This document shows positions 55,434-63,285 of a DNA stretch of 64,000 nt, piece by piece; position 1 is the stretch's first letter; each line of letters opens with the position of its first letter. The stretch is taken from contig JACPFR010000024.1 in NCBI GenBank assembly GCA_016182905.1, forward strand, positions 1 to 64,000. Direction: 5' to 3'. A program made the position numbers and the translations under genes. Under the pieces are notes generated by a model. It worked only from the letters and a program-made list of their open reading frames with translations. It ran no database searches and was not told where the DNA came from. The DNA is from Elusimicrobiota bacterium. GTDB lineage: Bacteria > Elusimicrobiota > Elusimicrobia > UBA1565 > UBA9628.

Positions 55434-55850
55434 TTACGGCTTGGGGAGCATCTTGAGCGCCCCGATGCCGGCCGCCCGGTAAACCTGGAAATCGCGGTCC
55501 AAAGTCACGATGGTGTCGATGCCGTCGCGTTCGGCGACGCGGATCAAAGACGCGTCGGCCAGATCCATCGGCCGGTTCCGGTATTTCCTCATCAAGGCCG
55601 TCAGGCGCGGGACGTCCTCCGTCCCCAGTCCGGCGACCAGCAGCTCGCCGTCTCCGAGCAGGGCGAGCAGCGCCTCCTGCTGGGCCCAGCCCTTGCGCCC
55701 CAGAAGGTGCATCGCCTCCGTGAGCGCGGGCCACGTGGTCACGAGGTCCCCGGTCGCCGCGCTCAGCCCCTCGAGCGAGCGTTCATGCAGCCCGTCGTCG
55801 GCGTCGAGATAGCCGACGAGGACGTTCGCGTCAACGAGGACGGAGCGCAC
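55434..55850 (-). CDS. VapC-like PIN-domain toxin
   Basis: A 138-residue PIN-domain ribonuclease. The acidic active-site residues are visible: VLVDANVLVGYLDADD (Asp about 7), WPALTEAMHLLG (Glu about 45), MDLADASLIRVAE (Asp about 98) and VTLDRDFQVYR (Asp about 117). It would cut RNA when not bound by the antitoxin encoded just upstream. Its start lies inside the 3' end of the antitoxin gene (20-nt overlap), the usual toxin-antitoxin arrangement. It is the leftmost of four such loci in the last 9 kb. Confidence 0.9.
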   Translation of the reverse strand: MRSVLVDANVLVGYLDADDGLHERSLEGLSAATGDLVTTWPALTEAMHLLGRKGWAQQEALLALLGDGELLVAGLGTEDVPRLTALMRKYRNRPMDLADASLIRVAERDGIDTIVTLDRDFQVYRAAGIGALKMLPKP

Positions 55851-56115
55851 GGTGTTTCGCCTCCAGATCCTCGGCCCAGATCCGCGAGCTGTCGAGCGCG
55901 GACAGGTCCTTGCGGCCGCTCCCCTTGGCGGGGATGTAGCGCTTCAGGCGCTCGTGCCCGGAGAGGTTCTCCGTCCGCGCGATGCGAGCCGCCTCGCCGA
56001 GCAGGGCGGTGCGGATCGCCTCCGACCGGGTCGCCCCATGCGCGCGGGCGACCCGGTCGAGGACCTTCCGTTCATCGGCGGTCAGCCGCAAGGTGATGGT
56101 CACTGTTTTGTTCAT
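55831..56115 (-). CDS. ribbon-helix-helix antitoxin partner of the PIN toxin
   Basis: A 94-residue antitoxin. KTVTITLRLTADERKVLDRVARAHGATRSEAIRTALL (about 3-40) is a CopG/RHH DNA-binding domain: one beta strand then two helices with a GxTxSE turn. The C-terminal half (LSGHERLKRYIPAKGSGRKDLSALD) would cover the PIN active site. It binds its own promoter; a 21-nt palindrome (56117-56137) lies 2 nt before the ATG. Confidence 0.87.
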   Translation of the reverse strand: MNKTVTITLRLTADERKVLDRVARAHGATRSEAIRTALLGEAARIARTENLSGHERLKRYIPAKGSGRKDLSALDSSRIWAEDLEAKHRALRPR

Positions 56116-58721: not shown

Positions 58722-59222
58722 TCAGCCATCGCCGCCCGCCAGCCGGCGGAACTCCGCGAACAGCTCGTGGATCGCGGCCGCGTGCTCGCCCTGCTCCTTC
58801 TCGAGTCCGAGAAGGGCCTTCTCCGCCTTCTCGATGCGCGCCGCCAGGCCTTCGCCGCTCATCAGCGCGTCGCTCATCTTCACGAACGCGCGCATGATGG
58901 CGATTCTCACTTCGCGGCCGCGCGGGCTGCGCAGCACGGTCGACAGCATGGAGATTCCTTCCCGCGTGAAGGCGAGCGGCCAGTATTTGCGGTGCTTCCC
59001 GTGGCCGGCTTTGTCTAAGGTCACAATTTGTGACCTTAGATGACTGCTTTCCTCCGCGGTCAAGCGAAACATGAAATCCGCAGGAAAATCACCGCGATTT
59101 CGTTGAACCTGTTGATTGAGGTATTTCGTGGTCACGCCGTATAAGCGCGCGAGGTCTTCGTCCAGCATGACCCTTTGACCGCGAACGACATGAATCAGGG
59201 GAACGACTTTGGCGATATCCAT
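58722..59222 (-). CDS. ORF6N-domain DNA-binding protein
   Basis: A 166-residue protein from the ATG at 59222. The ORF6N domain fills residues 1-110: IPLIHVVRG-like VPLIHVVRGQRVMLDEDLARLYGVTTKYLNQQVQRN, FPADFMFRLTAEE, then LRSQIVTLDKAG and AFTREGISMLSTVL. The C-terminus is a coiled coil (LEKEQGEHAAAIHELFAEFRRL). ORF6N proteins occur in phages and mobile regions and are thought to bind DNA. An in-frame TTG at 59285 would add 21 residues but lies in a palindrome. The codons for LRSQIVTL form a perfect 27-nt palindrome (59014-59040), and five related palindromes lie upstream. Confidence 0.88.
   Translation of the reverse strand: MDIAKVVPLIHVVRGQRVMLDEDLARLYGVTTKYLNQQVQRNRGDFPADFMFRLTAEESSHLRSQIVTLDKAGHGKHRKYWPLAFTREGISMLSTVLRSPRGREVRIAIMRAFVKMSDALMSGEGLAARIEKAEKALLGLEKEQGEHAAAIHELFAEFRRLAGGDG
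59014..59040. repeat. 27-nt palindrome P1, inside the ORF6N coding region
   Basis: TCTAAGGTCACAA-T-TTGTGACCTTAGA: perfect 13-bp arms around one base. On the minus strand it encodes the ORF6N core LRSQIVTL. Confidence 0.9.
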
Positions 59223-59260
59223 ATCTTCATACGATTGAGGGGGGCGATTTGTTCCATAGC

Positions 59261-59285
59261 TTGAAGTGCCAAATTGGTACTTCAA
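59261..59285. repeat. 25-nt palindrome P2 upstream of the ORF6N gene
   Basis: TTGAAGTGCC-AAATT-GGTACTTCAA, one mismatch in ten pairs. Read like P1 it gives LKYQFGTS. Confidence 0.8.
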
Positions 59286-59287
59286 GA

Positions 59288-59316
59288 TCTTAAGGTTGCA
59301 AATTGCAACCTTAAGA
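59288..59316. repeat. 29-nt perfect palindrome P3 upstream of the ORF6N gene
   Basis: TCTTAAGGTTGCAA-A-TTGCAACCTTAAGA: perfect 14-bp arms around one base. Read like P1 it gives LRLQFATL. Confidence 0.85.
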
Positions 59317-59350
59317 ATTTGGGTAAAACATAAATATTGATTGGATTATT

Positions 59351-59375
59351 TTGAGGTCGCAATTTACGACCTCAA
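59351..59375. repeat. 25-nt palindrome P4 upstream of the ORF6N gene
   Basis: TTGAGGTCGCAA-T-TTACGACCTCAA, one mismatch in twelve pairs. Read like P1 it gives LRS-stop-IATS. Confidence 0.8.
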
Positions 59376-59376
59376 A

Positions 59377-59403
59377 CTTGAAGTCACAATTTGCAACTTC
59401 AAG
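59377..59403. repeat. 27-nt palindrome P5 upstream of the ORF6N gene
   Basis: CTTGAAGTCACAA-T-TTGCAACTTCAAG, 11 of 13 pairs. Read like P1 it gives LKLQIVTS. It starts 1 nt after P4. Confidence 0.8.
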
Positions 59404-59439
59404 TCGAAGGCGAGTTTTCACGCCTGTTTACACGCCGCG

Positions 59440-59466
59440 TCTAAGGTCACAATTTGCAACCTTAGA
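59440..59466. repeat. 27-nt palindrome P6, next to the M2 peptidase promoter
   Basis: TCTAAGGTCACAA-T-TTGCAACCTTAGA, 11 of 13 pairs. Its outer arms match P1. Read like P1 it gives LRLQIVTL. It ends 16 nt before the TATCCT -10 box of the peptidase gene and covers its -35 position. Confidence 0.8.
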
Positions 59467-59468
59467 AC

Positions 59469-59489
59469 CGCCTTAGGATTTGTATCCTA
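59469..59489 (+). promoter_or_regulatory. promoter of the M2 peptidase gene, shared 21-nt motif copy 1
   Basis: CGCCTTAGGATTTGTATCCTA, with TATCCT at 59483-59488 as the -10 box and the ATG 6 nt later (leaderless). The same 21 nt occur with two changes at 63678-63698, again 6 nt before a start codon. AGGAT and ATCCT form an inverted repeat in this copy. Confidence 0.65.
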
Positions 59490-59494
59490 CCCGC

Positions 59495-61285
59495 ATGATC
59501 CTCCTCCTCCTCTCCGTTTTCCTCGCCGTTCCGTCGCAGGCCGCGGCTGCGACCGTCAAGGACGCCCAAGCCTTCATGGACCGCGCCGAGAAGTCCCTCG
59601 ACGCCCTCGGCCGCCGCGCCGCCTTCTCCTCCTGGGCGATGCAGACCAACATCAACTACTCCACCGAGTGGCTCGCCGGCGACGCCGACAACGCCTACTC
59701 CGCCGAGGCCGCCCGCCTCGCCCGCGAGGCCCGCCGATTCGACAAGCTCGCGCTGCCCGCCGACCTCAAGCGCAAGTTCCTCCTCCTCAAGCTGACCGTG
59801 ACGGCCCCCGCCCCGCCCGACGAGAAAGACCAGAAAGAGCTCTCCGACACCAAGGTCTGGCTCGAGAGCACCTACGGCAAGGGCAAGTACTGCCCGGCTT
59901 CCACGACGACCTGCCTCACGCTCGACGACATGGAAGACGTCCTGCGCTCCTCACGCGACCCCAAGCGCCTGGCCGAGATCTGGACCGGCTGGCGGACGAT
60001 CTCCCCGGTCATGCGCCCGCGCTATCAGCGCTTCGCCGAGCTGTCCAACAAGGGCGCCCAGGACCTGGGCTTCCGCGACACCGCCGACCTCTGGCGCTCC
60101 GGCTACGACATGACCCCGGAGCAGTTCTCCGCCGAGCTCGACCGCACCTGGCTGCAGATGAAGCCGCTCTACGACGCCCTCCACGCGTACGTGCGCCGCC
60201 GTCTGCAGGATAAATATGGGCCCGAAATCATCGGCGCCGACGGCCTCATCCCCCAGCAGCTCACCGGCAACATGTGGGGCCAGTCCTGGGAGAACATCTA
60301 CGACTTGGCCGCGCCGCCGAAGACCAAGCCCGCCTTCGACCTCACCGAGCAGCTCAAGAAAAACAAGTACGACGAGCTCAAGATGGTCAAGACCGGCGAG
60401 GCCTTCTTCTCCTCCCTGGGCTTCCCTCCGCTCCCGTCCACCTTCTGGGAGCGCTCCATGCTCACCCGCCCCCGCGACCGCGAGGTCGTCTGCCACGCCT
60501 CGGCCTGGGATGTCGAAAACGGCCAAGATCTTCGTATTAAAATGTGCATCAAGATCAACGCCGAGGACTTCGTCACCATCCACCACGAGCTCGGCCACAA
60601 TTTCTATCAGCGTGCCTATGAAAAACAGCCGTACTTCTTCCGCGGCTCGGCCAACGACGGCTTCCACGAGGCCTTGGGCGACACCATCGCCCTCTCGGTC
60701 ACGCCCGAGTACCTTAAATCCGTCGGGCTCATCGACACCGTCCCCGGCCCGGAGGGGGACATCGACCTCCTCCTCACCAAGGCGCTCGAGAAGGTGGCCT
60801 TCATGCCGTTCGGCCTGCTCGTCGACAAGTGGCGCTGGGACGTCTTCACGGGCAAGACCAAGCCCGAGGACTACAACAAGGCGTGGTGGGCGCTCGTGCA
60901 GAAATATCAGGGGATGAAGCCGCCGTCTCCGCGCACCGAGAACGACTTCGACCCGGGCGCCAAGTACCACATCCCGGCCAACACCCCGTACGCGCGCTAC
61001 TTCCTGGCCAATGTCTACCAGTTCCAGTTCTACCGGTCCCTGTGCAAGGCTCACGGCCACGCGGGGCCGCTGCACCGCTGCTCGTACTACGGCGACAAGG
61101 CCGCCGGCAAGAGCCTGGGCGACATGATGGCGATGGGCTCGAGCAAGCCGTGGCCCGACGCCCTCGAGGCGGTGACGGGCACGCGTGAGCTCGACGCGAC
61201 GGCCATCCTCGAGTACTTCGCGCCGCTCAAGGCCTGGCTCGACGAGCAGAACAAGGGGCAGGCCGTGGGGTGGAAGACGGAGTGA
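59495..61285 (+). CDS. exported M2-family peptidase (angiotensin-converting-enzyme type)
   Basis: A 596-residue zinc peptidase of the usual M2 length. A signal peptide (MILLLLSVFLAVPSQAAA) precedes the helical N-terminal region (QTNINYSTEWLAGDADNAYS, the ACE-like start of the catalytic domain). The zinc site is VTIHHELGHNFYQRAY (HExxH, about 360), followed by the third ligand in SANDGFHEALGDTIALSVTPEYL (about 382-404), identical in form to ACE. It removes dipeptides from peptide C-termini in the periplasm or outside. Leaderless start 6 nt after TATCCT. Part of its 3' end is duplicated at 61811. Confidence 0.9.
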   Translation: MILLLLSVFLAVPSQAAAATVKDAQAFMDRAEKSLDALGRRAAFSSWAMQTNINYSTEWLAGDADNAYSAEAARLAREARRFDKLALPADLKRKFLLLKLTVTAPAPPDEKDQKELSDTKVWLESTYGKGKYCPASTTTCLTLDDMEDVLRSSRDPKRLAEIWTGWRTISPVMRPRYQRFAELSNKGAQDLGFRDTADLWRSGYDMTPEQFSAELDRTWLQMKPLYDALHAYVRRRLQDKYGPEIIGADGLIPQQLTGNMWGQSWENIYDLAAPPKTKPAFDLTEQLKKNKYDELKMVKTGEAFFSSLGFPPLPSTFWERSMLTRPRDREVVCHASAWDVENGQDLRIKMCIKINAEDFVTIHHELGHNFYQRAYEKQPYFFRGSANDGFHEALGDTIALSVTPEYLKSVGLIDTVPGPEGDIDLLLTKALEKVAFMPFGLLVDKWRWDVFTGKTKPEDYNKAWWALVQKYQGMKPPSPRTENDFDPGAKYHIPANTPYARYFLANVYQFQFYRSLCKAHGHAGPLHRCSYYGDKAAGKSLGDMMAMGSSKPWPDALEAVTGTRELDATAILEYFAPLKAWLDEQNKGQAVGWKTE

Positions 61286-61855: not shown

Positions 61856-62149
61856 CTACTTCGCGGGCACGAACGCCAGGCGCGCGCCCAGGGCCTGCGC
61901 CGCGCGCAGATAGGCGCTCAGCAAATGATCCGAACCCGTCTTCTCCAAGCGAGACACATGCGTTTGTTTGAGCCCCATCTCGTCGGCCAGCTCCGCCTGC
62001 GTTAGCCCCTTCAATCGCCGCAGTAAAGCCAGCTGGACCGGCAGCGGCCGGCGCGAGAGCTCCGCGAAGTACTCCTCGGCGTACGCCGGGTCGTTCCCGA
62101 TCGCGCGCCGTATGTCTCCCGTCAACCCCGCCTGGGCGGCCTTTTTCAT
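61856..62149 (-). CDS. HigA/XRE-family antitoxin
   Basis: A 97-residue protein. The HTH_XRE domain is at about 37-92: ALLRRLKGLTQAELADEMGLKQTHVSRLEKTGSDHLLSAYLRAAQALG, with the recognition helix QTHVSRLEK. It follows the toxin gene with a 4-nt overlap (toxin first, antitoxin second, the HigBA order). It should neutralise the toxin and repress the operon. Confidence 0.9.
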   Translation of the reverse strand: MKKAAQAGLTGDIRRAIGNDPAYAEEYFAELSRRPLPVQLALLRRLKGLTQAELADEMGLKQTHVSRLEKTGSDHLLSAYLRAAQALGARLAFVPAK

Positions 62150-62502
62150 CGCACCCCTCCCAAAACCAGCCTCATGCGCCGATACGCCTTCTCGAGCTCC
62201 CTGCGCGGCGCGGCCTCCGATTTCTTCTCATAGGCGGACAGCAGCCAGAGTTCGCCTCCTCGGACACAGAAGAAAATCCGGTACGCGGTCTTGTCGCAAC
62301 GCCGCTTGAGCTCCAGCAGCGGTTCCCAGCCCTTCAATCCGCGCACCGTCACATTCAGGGTCTCCGGCCAGAATTCCTCGAGCGTCTGAAGATCGAGGTC
62401 GAGCCTGACGGCCGCTTTCAGCGTCCGCGCGTCCCGCCGCAGCGCCTGCAGATAATCCCGGACTTCTCCCGTCTCTCCCTGCGGATAGTGACATATGCGC
62501 AA
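62146..62502 (-). CDS. HigB/RelE-like toxin (phage Gp49-like)
   Basis: A 118-residue RelE-superfamily toxin: TRDYLQALRRDARTLKAAVRLDL near the N-terminus (helices 1 and 2), then LNVTVRGLKGWEPLLELKRRCDKTAYRIFFCVRGGELWLLSAYEKKSEAAPRRELEKAYRRM, the conserved ELRxxxxxxxYRIFFxxxxxxxxLLxxFxKKSxxxPxxExxxA pattern of Gp49/HigB toxins. It cleaves mRNA at the ribosome in characterised members. TTG start at 62502 with GGAGG upstream, and a TATACT -10 box at 62521-62526. Confidence 0.85.
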   Translation of the reverse strand: MRICHYPQGETGEVRDYLQALRRDARTLKAAVRLDLDLQTLEEFWPETLNVTVRGLKGWEPLLELKRRCDKTAYRIFFCVRGGELWLLSAYEKKSEAAPRRELEKAYRRMRLVLGGVR

Positions 62503-62654: not shown

Positions 62655-62954
62655 TCAACGCGCGCCCGGCCGGACTCCGACGGACAGCCTCAACCCGGCC
62701 GCCTGGAGAAGGTGGAGCACGCTTTGCAGATGCGGATTGCCCCGATGGGACAGCATCTTGTACAAGCTCACGCGGTTGAGCTTGGCCCGCCGGGAGATCG
62801 CGGCCATGCCCTGCGCCTCCGCGACGTCGCGCAGCGCCAGCAGAAAAGTATCCAGATCGTTCTCTCCGATCGCCGCGTTGATGTACTCGGCGGCTTCGGA
62901 GGGATCTCTGAGCGCTTTGCGCAGGCTGTCACGATAATTTTTCGCGGGCCGCAT
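62655..62954 (-). CDS. addiction-module antidote protein (HTH, COG3636 type)
   Basis: A 99-residue antitoxin: RDSLRKALRDPSEAAEYINAAIGENDLDTFLLALRDVAEAQGMAAISRRAKLNRVSLYKMLSHRGNPHLQSVLHLLQAAGLRLSV shows the family order, a helical N-terminus (DP.EAA.YL.AAL....) and an HTH with SRxAxLNRxxLYKxLSxxGNPxxxTxxxxLxALG. It overlaps the toxin gene by 26 nt. It should bind both the toxin and the operator palindrome at 63301. Confidence 0.9.
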   Translation of the reverse strand: MRPAKNYRDSLRKALRDPSEAAEYINAAIGENDLDTFLLALRDVAEAQGMAAISRRAKLNRVSLYKMLSHRGNPHLQSVLHLLQAAGLRLSVGVRPGAR

Positions 62955-63285
62955 GGTGACGCCTCCGGTAATCGGCCCAATAGTCGCGGGCCGCTTTGAT
63001 GTCCTTCGTCTGAGTGCTTTTGTCGCCGCCGCAGAGCAGAATGACGATCTCCGCTCCCTCCTCGCCGAAATACACGCGATAACCGGGCCCGAAATCGATC
63101 TTCAGTTCGAAGACGCCTCCGCCCACCGGCTCGCATCTCCCCAAATTCCCCGCGCGAACCCGGGCGATCCGCGCTCGGATCTTCGCGCGGCCCGTGCGAT
63201 CCCGCATCGACTCCAGCCACTCTTCGAACGGGCAGCGCCCGGACGGGAAACGATAGAGATACGCCTCTTTCGGGGTGACGTGCAT
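62929..63285 (-). CDS. RelE/ParE-family addiction-module killer protein (COG3657 type)
   Basis: A 118-residue toxin. FPSGRCPFEEWLESMRDRTGRAKIRARIARVRAGNLGRCEPVGGGVFELKIDFGPGYRVYFGEEGAEIVILLCGGDKSTQTKDIKAARDYW carries the complete family pattern (PFxxWLxxLxDxxxxxxIxxRixRxxxGnxGdxkxvgxGvxElRIxxGpGYRvYf...LLcGGdKsxQxxDIxxAkxy). A ribonuclease-type toxin in characterised relatives. TATCCT lies 8 nt before the ATG. Confidence 0.92.
   Translation of the reverse strand: MHVTPKEAYLYRFPSGRCPFEEWLESMRDRTGRAKIRARIARVRAGNLGRCEPVGGGVFELKIDFGPGYRVYFGEEGAEIVILLCGGDKSTQTKDIKAARDYWADYRRRHHAAREKLS

Follow-up and report, generated by a model that had tools for sequence, protein, structure and literature searches.

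A short A/T-rich region in an Elusimicrobiota genome raises the question of why a gene for an ORF6N-domain protein should hold a DNA palindrome within its own codons, and why five further palindromes of the same design should stand upstream of it. The region lies in a stretch of 64,000 nucleotides of contig JACPFR010000024.1, which was analysed as a whole and is called the window here. The original prediction for this locus, made from the letters alone, described six palindromes (P1 to P6) of 13-1-13 architecture and offered three possible roles for them, namely binding sites of the protein that mirror its own gene, a store of variants for gene conversion, or the ends of a mobile unit. The comparative evidence presented below argues for the first of these in the case of P1, which would probably be a self-encoded operator of its gene's protein, likely for negative autoregulation, with P2 to P6 as upstream copies.

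The ORF6N gene and the palindromes of the window

All six palindromes were recovered at the positions originally given, each with 11 to 13 of 13 pairs (Table 1), and the translations that had been read from their minus strand were also correct (LRSQIVTL for P1 and LKYQFGTS, LRLQFATL, LRS*IATS, LKLQIVTS and LRLQIVTL for P2 to P6). As had been claimed, P1 lies within an ORF6N gene on the minus strand, the product of which matches the Pfam model PF10543 with 99.9 bits (cut-off 27.8; E about 1e-28). The domain search returned PF10543 as the sole domain of this protein, with nuclease and recombinase domains absent. The other five palindromes occupy the A/T-rich gap between the ORF6N gene and a divergent peptidase-like gene, which was used as the anchor for finding orthologous loci. 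The predicted local A/T-richness is evident from a G+C content of 44% at 59014-59466 versus 68.5% for the whole window. Under a Markov-1 null for the local region, the mean number of such palindromes was 0.017 and the maximum 2 in 2000 trials, versus the 6 observed. Elsewhere in the window, the gene pairs at 55434-56115, 61856-62502 and 62655-63285 are ones that we take, by the list of open reading frames alone, to resemble toxin-antitoxin modules (PIN-type and HigB/HigA-type).

Table 1. Features of the ORF6N locus in window coordinates; "word" denotes the letters at positions 9-10 of a palindrome half
Feature	Position	Strand	Pairs	Remarks
ORF6N-domain gene	58722..59222	-		166 aa, ATG at 59222
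Predicted recognition helix codons	59100..59132	-		Residues 31-41 (TTKYLNQQVQR), from model and residue-base code
P1	59014-59040		13/13	Within the ORF6N gene; encodes residues 61-70
P2	59260-59286		12	Upstream; word GC/AC, differs from the gene's own specificity
P3	59289-59315		13	Upstream; word TG, the same in two same-genus genomes
P4	59350-59376		12	Upstream; word CG
P5	59377-59403		11	Abuts P4 at 27-bp spacing; halves CA + TG
P6	59440-59466		11	Adjoins the divergent peptidase gene; halves CA + TG
Peptidase-like gene, 5' end	59480..59494	+		Divergent gene 59480-61285; bounds the intergenic array

The AlphaFold model of the ORF6N protein (mean pLDDT 85.6) consists of an N-terminal helix-turn-helix, followed by a flexible loop, the AFTREG helix and long C-terminal helices. 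Helices 21-28 and 32-41 stand in helix-turn-helix-like order, and the latter contains K33, Y34 and Q37. The loop block encoded by P1 is modelled at low confidence (mean pLDDT 66). Since solved structures gave no convincing match, with a best E of 0.9 and nothing significant or usable in a Foldseek search of the model against the PDB, the helix-turn-helix assignment is based on the predicted model together with the residue-base code described below.

Conservation and distribution of the coding palindrome

The 13-1-13 coding palindrome is present at the same site in 200 of 211 ORF6N genes (about 95%), the 211 being the genes recognised by their helix. Its carriers are distributed over Elusimicrobiota, Bacteroidota, Proteobacteria, Planctomycetota, Bacillota, candidate phyla, phage contigs and plasmids; among viral contigs, a single-protein query gave none and an alignment query gave 40. 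In 116 coding palindromes, 11.8 of 13 positions are paired, compared with 5.3 expected from synonymous recoding, and for 98 of the 116 the pairing was attained in no more than 1 of 1000 synonymous recodings. Moreover, the palindrome is read in two frames at this one site, as an LRSQIVTS-type motif in most genes and as an ELVTNCDQF-type motif, shifted by one base, in some, and the conserved entity is therefore the DNA. The claim that the arms change together also held, with a covariation score of 0.674 versus 0.179 in shuffles for 52 palindromes chosen for pairing. Positions 8, 11 and 12 and their partners are nearly invariant, and the innermost pair (pair 1) is free, with a mismatch in 41% of cases. 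Symmetry also holds for the outer arms (positions 1-6), whose letters no residue clearly explains.

An mRNA hairpin, acting as an attenuator or in the control of stability or translation, could make use of the same stem-loop potential, and upstream copies could fall in a leader. However, mismatches on the coding strand in pairs 2-13 comprise 20 G·T and 19 A·C, and since the two are equally rare, so that G·U is no commoner than A·C, selection has acted on DNA rather than on an RNA hairpin. In addition, the symmetry extends to pair 2, inside the possible loop, and the recognition-helix code is a DNA-binding signature, which together leave the hairpin a most improbable explanation.

Three ORF6N reading frames (L195, L196 and L197) have a stop codon soon after the palindrome. 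Truncated ORF6N matches that stop at the motif proved to be mostly frameshifted or deleted pseudogenes.

Copies scattered over the genome without ORF6N genes, which the original prediction had named as evidence against itself, were not seen in the genome of the window. A covariance model of the palindrome located 9 in its 3.98 Mb, all at three ORF6N genes, and the 15-bp core, with up to 2 mismatches allowed, occurs at 5 places, likewise all at ORF6N genes. Among 16 related genomes searched, the palindrome is absent in the six that lack ORF6N. The few matches elsewhere were ORF6N remnants, some orphan sites and one Bro-N gene, in which the palindrome lies at the 'SQLVTNCHQLK' codons. The same kind of palindrome is found in most Bro-N relatives examined, and the one KilA-N gene examined (L286) has no such palindrome. 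The orphan palindromes at L198, L199 and L200, which stand without a recognisable ORF6N or Bro-N gene, are probably remnants; one pair among them is near a tsaE-like gene and one near a tRNA-like sequence. As a further observation, a palindrome-bearing Bro-N gene (L281) on the Arcobacter cloacae plasmid pACLO is flanked by cas4 and cas1b in a CRISPR operon of type I-B.

This distribution bears on whether the palindrome is a mobile REP- or RPE-like repeat that chanced to insert in ORF6N genes. Such a repeat would be short and palindromic, with several copies per locus and tandem 27-bp units also inside coding sequence, as is the case here. It would, however, be expected to be dispersed, whereas essentially all copies are at ORF6N or Bro-N genes or their recognisable remnants, always in the same codon region, and with a sequence set by the helix; insertion by chance is thus hardly credible. 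The suggested role as ends of a mobile unit fares no better, because the copies are inside or just upstream of ORF6N and Bro-N genes and not around them.

The residue-base code

Residues outside the palindrome-encoded loop were compared with the palindrome letters, and the best residue was the x of 'LNxAV' in the predicted recognition helix, with a partial correlation of 0.75 with positions 9-10. The relation is nearly deterministic. Across 132 genes, E is accompanied by the word CG (31/31), Q by CA (63/68), R by GC (15/17), K by TC (11/11) and L by TT (4/5), while an R three residues before the Q (R..Q) turns CA into TG; K at the first helix position goes with G at palindrome position 7 in 55 of 57 genes. 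Of 200 genes, 191 have their own word in both halves of the coding palindrome, and 197 have it in one half or both.

In the window, P1 carries the word CA, and G at position 7, both as predicted by K33 and Q37 (with Y34). A natural experiment is provided by a same-genus orthologue (G016), in which K33 is replaced by H and, in each arm of P1, G7 is replaced by A. One exception occurs in the same genome as the window, where a paralogue on contig C37 with an R..Q helix, for which TG is predicted, has CA in its coding palindrome and TG upstream. Five loci (L061, L063, L076, L104 and L168) have two or three coding palindromes each, often exactly 27 bp (9 codons) apart; usually one of these agrees with the code of its gene, and the additional palindrome carries another word, mostly CA.

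The code is not explained by phylogeny, because about 40 word switches occur on a tree built without the helix, because residue and word changed jointly in 19 of 43 sister pairs (the residue alone in 0 and the word alone in 1), and because the word is barely predictable from whole-protein distance (Mantel r 0.13). The ORF6N code was frozen before 60 further regions from 50 genomes of other phyla were fetched, and 30 loci returned by a search made before the freeze were also scanned. The held-out genes had less than 90% identity to any earlier gene, with a median nearest identity of 78%. In this set, the frozen code was correct in 33 of 35 unseen genes, compared with a permuted mean of 11 and a maximum of 21 in 10,000 permutations. 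As for the two misses, L322 has two tandem palindromes, the other of which fits, and L384 has a hybrid palindrome with one fitting half. A sister code for Bro-N genes, in which YW-x-K goes with GA, YW-x-V with TA, and x=S with C at position 8, was likewise fixed beforehand and was correct in 14 of 14 genes. Four Bro-N genes with D or W at the code position (L409, L416, L422 and L434) have an altered palindrome core (CGAAA.. or GTAATAC), suggesting that the code may be wider.

A purely structural element, be it a cruciform, a single-stranded DNA hairpin or a product of template-switch repair, would need no sequence-specific recognition, and near-perfect pairing around a free centre, as well as paired changes between close relatives, would suit it. 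However, helix residues would not then predict letters, and positions 8, 11 and 12 and their partners would not be expected to be nearly invariant; the residue-base code strongly disfavours such an element, which is accordingly very unlikely. Conservation at the DNA level, the residue-base code, the held-out prediction and the exclusivity of the palindrome to these genes lead us to infer that the ORF6N protein, with very high probability, binds the palindrome in its own coding sequence. The proposed role of P1 as a binding site that mirrors its own gene is in this way strongly supported, since helix residues predict the palindrome, held-out genes included. The original prediction had pointed out that ORF6N proteins vary at this motif; the variation of the LRSQIVTS motif is forced by the DNA site and not the reverse.

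Upstream copies, proposed mechanism and known systems

A recognised upstream copy accompanies 35 of the 211 genes (about 17%), mostly 50-280 bp ahead of the domain and often with copies abutting at 27 bp. The upstream and coding copies of a locus have their outer arms in common (permutation p<0.0005). The gene's own word is carried by 22 of 48 upstream copies (16 expected, p=0.015), and simple promoter autorepression fails for these copies because the proportion is no higher; a pattern scan found no sigma-70-like promoter. Since P1 and P2 to P6 differ in their words, the idea that every copy at a locus has one common specificity was rejected. Of 31 half-site words foreign to their gene, 14 match another ORF6N gene in the genome concerned (9.4 expected, p=0.037), in a test where sites are not independent and repertoires are incomplete. 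P2 to P4 of the window carry such foreign words. In the genome of the window, two CA-type helices and one TG-type helix are encoded, the last by the C37 paralogue, and the word TG of P3 fits the R..Q helix of this paralogue. These matches are suggestive only, and P2 to P6 may be regulatory sites that other ORF6N proteins use as well.

Between close relatives, P4, P5 and P6 switch words in both arms with their flanks unchanged. In two relatives, P4 has the word CA, its arms having changed as a pair; the word of P5 is CG in relatives, and that of P6 is GC or CG, with P6 decayed in one relative. P5 and P6 (59377-59466) differ from the CG-type relatives by C-to-T changes that affect each arm on the sense strand of ORF6N and yield TG/CA hybrids. 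At an orthologue of the window locus (L038, on G007:C113), the ORF6N gene has lost its sequence from P1 onward through a deletion whose junction is at the palindrome, P6 is decayed, and P2 to P5 are still nearly perfect. Recombination of N- and C-terminal halves at the palindrome was considered and rejected, as no chimeras were found and the only strong case, L038, is this deletion starting at P1.

The resemblance of upstream to coding copies, the outer arms shared within a locus and the fast word changes in P2 to P6 might all be taken as signs of a silent-variant store, from which upstream copies donate to the coding motif by gene conversion. Most genes, however, have no upstream copy, and a chimera signal is absent. 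Conversion from differing copies would also break the code, since the coding word is the one called for by the helix of the same gene in 191 of 200 cases, whereas upstream copies often differ. This second role offered by the original prediction is therefore dropped as exceedingly improbable.

In the proposed mechanism, the ORF6N protein would bind P1 via its predicted recognition helix, presumably as a symmetric dimer, with K33, Y34 and Q37 reading positions 7 and 9-10 of each half-site. Their distance from the centre, 4 to 7 bp, would suit a dimer whose two recognition helices are separated by one turn. Because P1 sits in codons of a flexible loop, its letters can probably change without damage as the helix changes, and because it is embedded in the coding sequence, the operator is inseparable from the gene in horizontal transfer. 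Negative autoregulation might proceed by a block of transcription about 190 bp into the gene, with promoter-near copies, where present, aiding the block. P2 to P6, with their mixed specificities, would probably be recognised in part by the protein of this gene and in part by other ORF6N proteins. We infer dimeric binding, autorepression and cross-regulation, and autoregulation is the somewhat favoured role of the coding site.

Self-binding might instead serve the homing, replication or partition of a carrier element, or the exclusion of competing copies. Plasmids and phage contigs are among the carriers of ORF6N and Bro-N genes, the operators diversify fast, and no target other than the palindrome was found in the genome of the window, all of which would agree with such a function. 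It is nevertheless rather unlikely, given that the window protein has no nuclease or recombinase domain, that chimeras or junctions at the palindrome are absent except for the one deletion, and that promoter-near copies fit regulation.

Returning to the self-encoded operator, a tentative extension is that ORF6N and Bro-N genes could form a very large class of self-addressing genes, each with the address for its own protein in its codons, whatever the reading frame, and written in a code of residues and bases that the sequence reveals. Additional sites of foreign specificity would wire paralogues and elements residing in the same cell into cross-regulating networks. P5 and P6 would then be possible heterodimer sites, because their CA and TG halves match both word classes encoded in the genome. 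If true, the targets of a huge, almost uncharacterised regulator family would be readable directly from the genes themselves, in which the binding sites lie. There would then be a recognition code between protein and DNA that hundreds of natural examples illustrate, together with a ready source of orthogonal regulators, and it would be explained how mobile regulators retain their control site after horizontal transfer. Moreover, DNA-dictated variation of LRSQIVTS would give false residue-residue couplings in protein co-evolution analyses.

Domain swapping has been described (PMC10111431) for a network of regulatory domains in phages, the Bro-N network (Bro-N, ORF6N, KilA-N, Rha and Ant), and neither a coding palindrome nor a residue-base code appears in the passages on swapping in that account. 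In the open-licence literature searched, which is weak evidence, no paper linking ORF6N or Bro-N genes with a coding palindrome was found, and a nearly universal self-gene operator with two frames and a residue-base code was not found described. The closest coding elements with dyad symmetry and horizontal spread are the PARCEL elements. In the part of the PARCEL account considered here, these are 25-residue repeats in tandem arrays, many in membrane-targeted proteins and with no DNA-binding protein that recognises its own gene, whereas the ORF6N unit is 27 bp, mostly single, and located in the loop of a DNA-binding protein. REP and Rickettsia palindromic elements are also short palindromes, the Rickettsia ones within genes, but they are mobile and dispersed over genomes, while the present palindromes are confined to ORF6N and Bro-N genes.

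Helix-turn-helix autoregulators, such as phage repressors and TetR/ArsR-like repressors, have operators at their own promoter. The ORF6N system, as proposed, resembles them in its symmetric operator, in specificity residing in the predicted recognition helix and in the co-evolution of helix and operator; it differs in that the main, nearly universal operator is at a fixed codon position in the regulator's own gene, where it dictates part of the protein sequence. Intragenic operators are known as well, such as lac O2 in lacZ and the internal gal operator, and like them the proposed ORF6N operator is inside a coding region. Those, however, are single cases in a target gene of another regulator, whereas the ORF6N operator is in the regulator's own gene, across phyla, in two families and in two frames.
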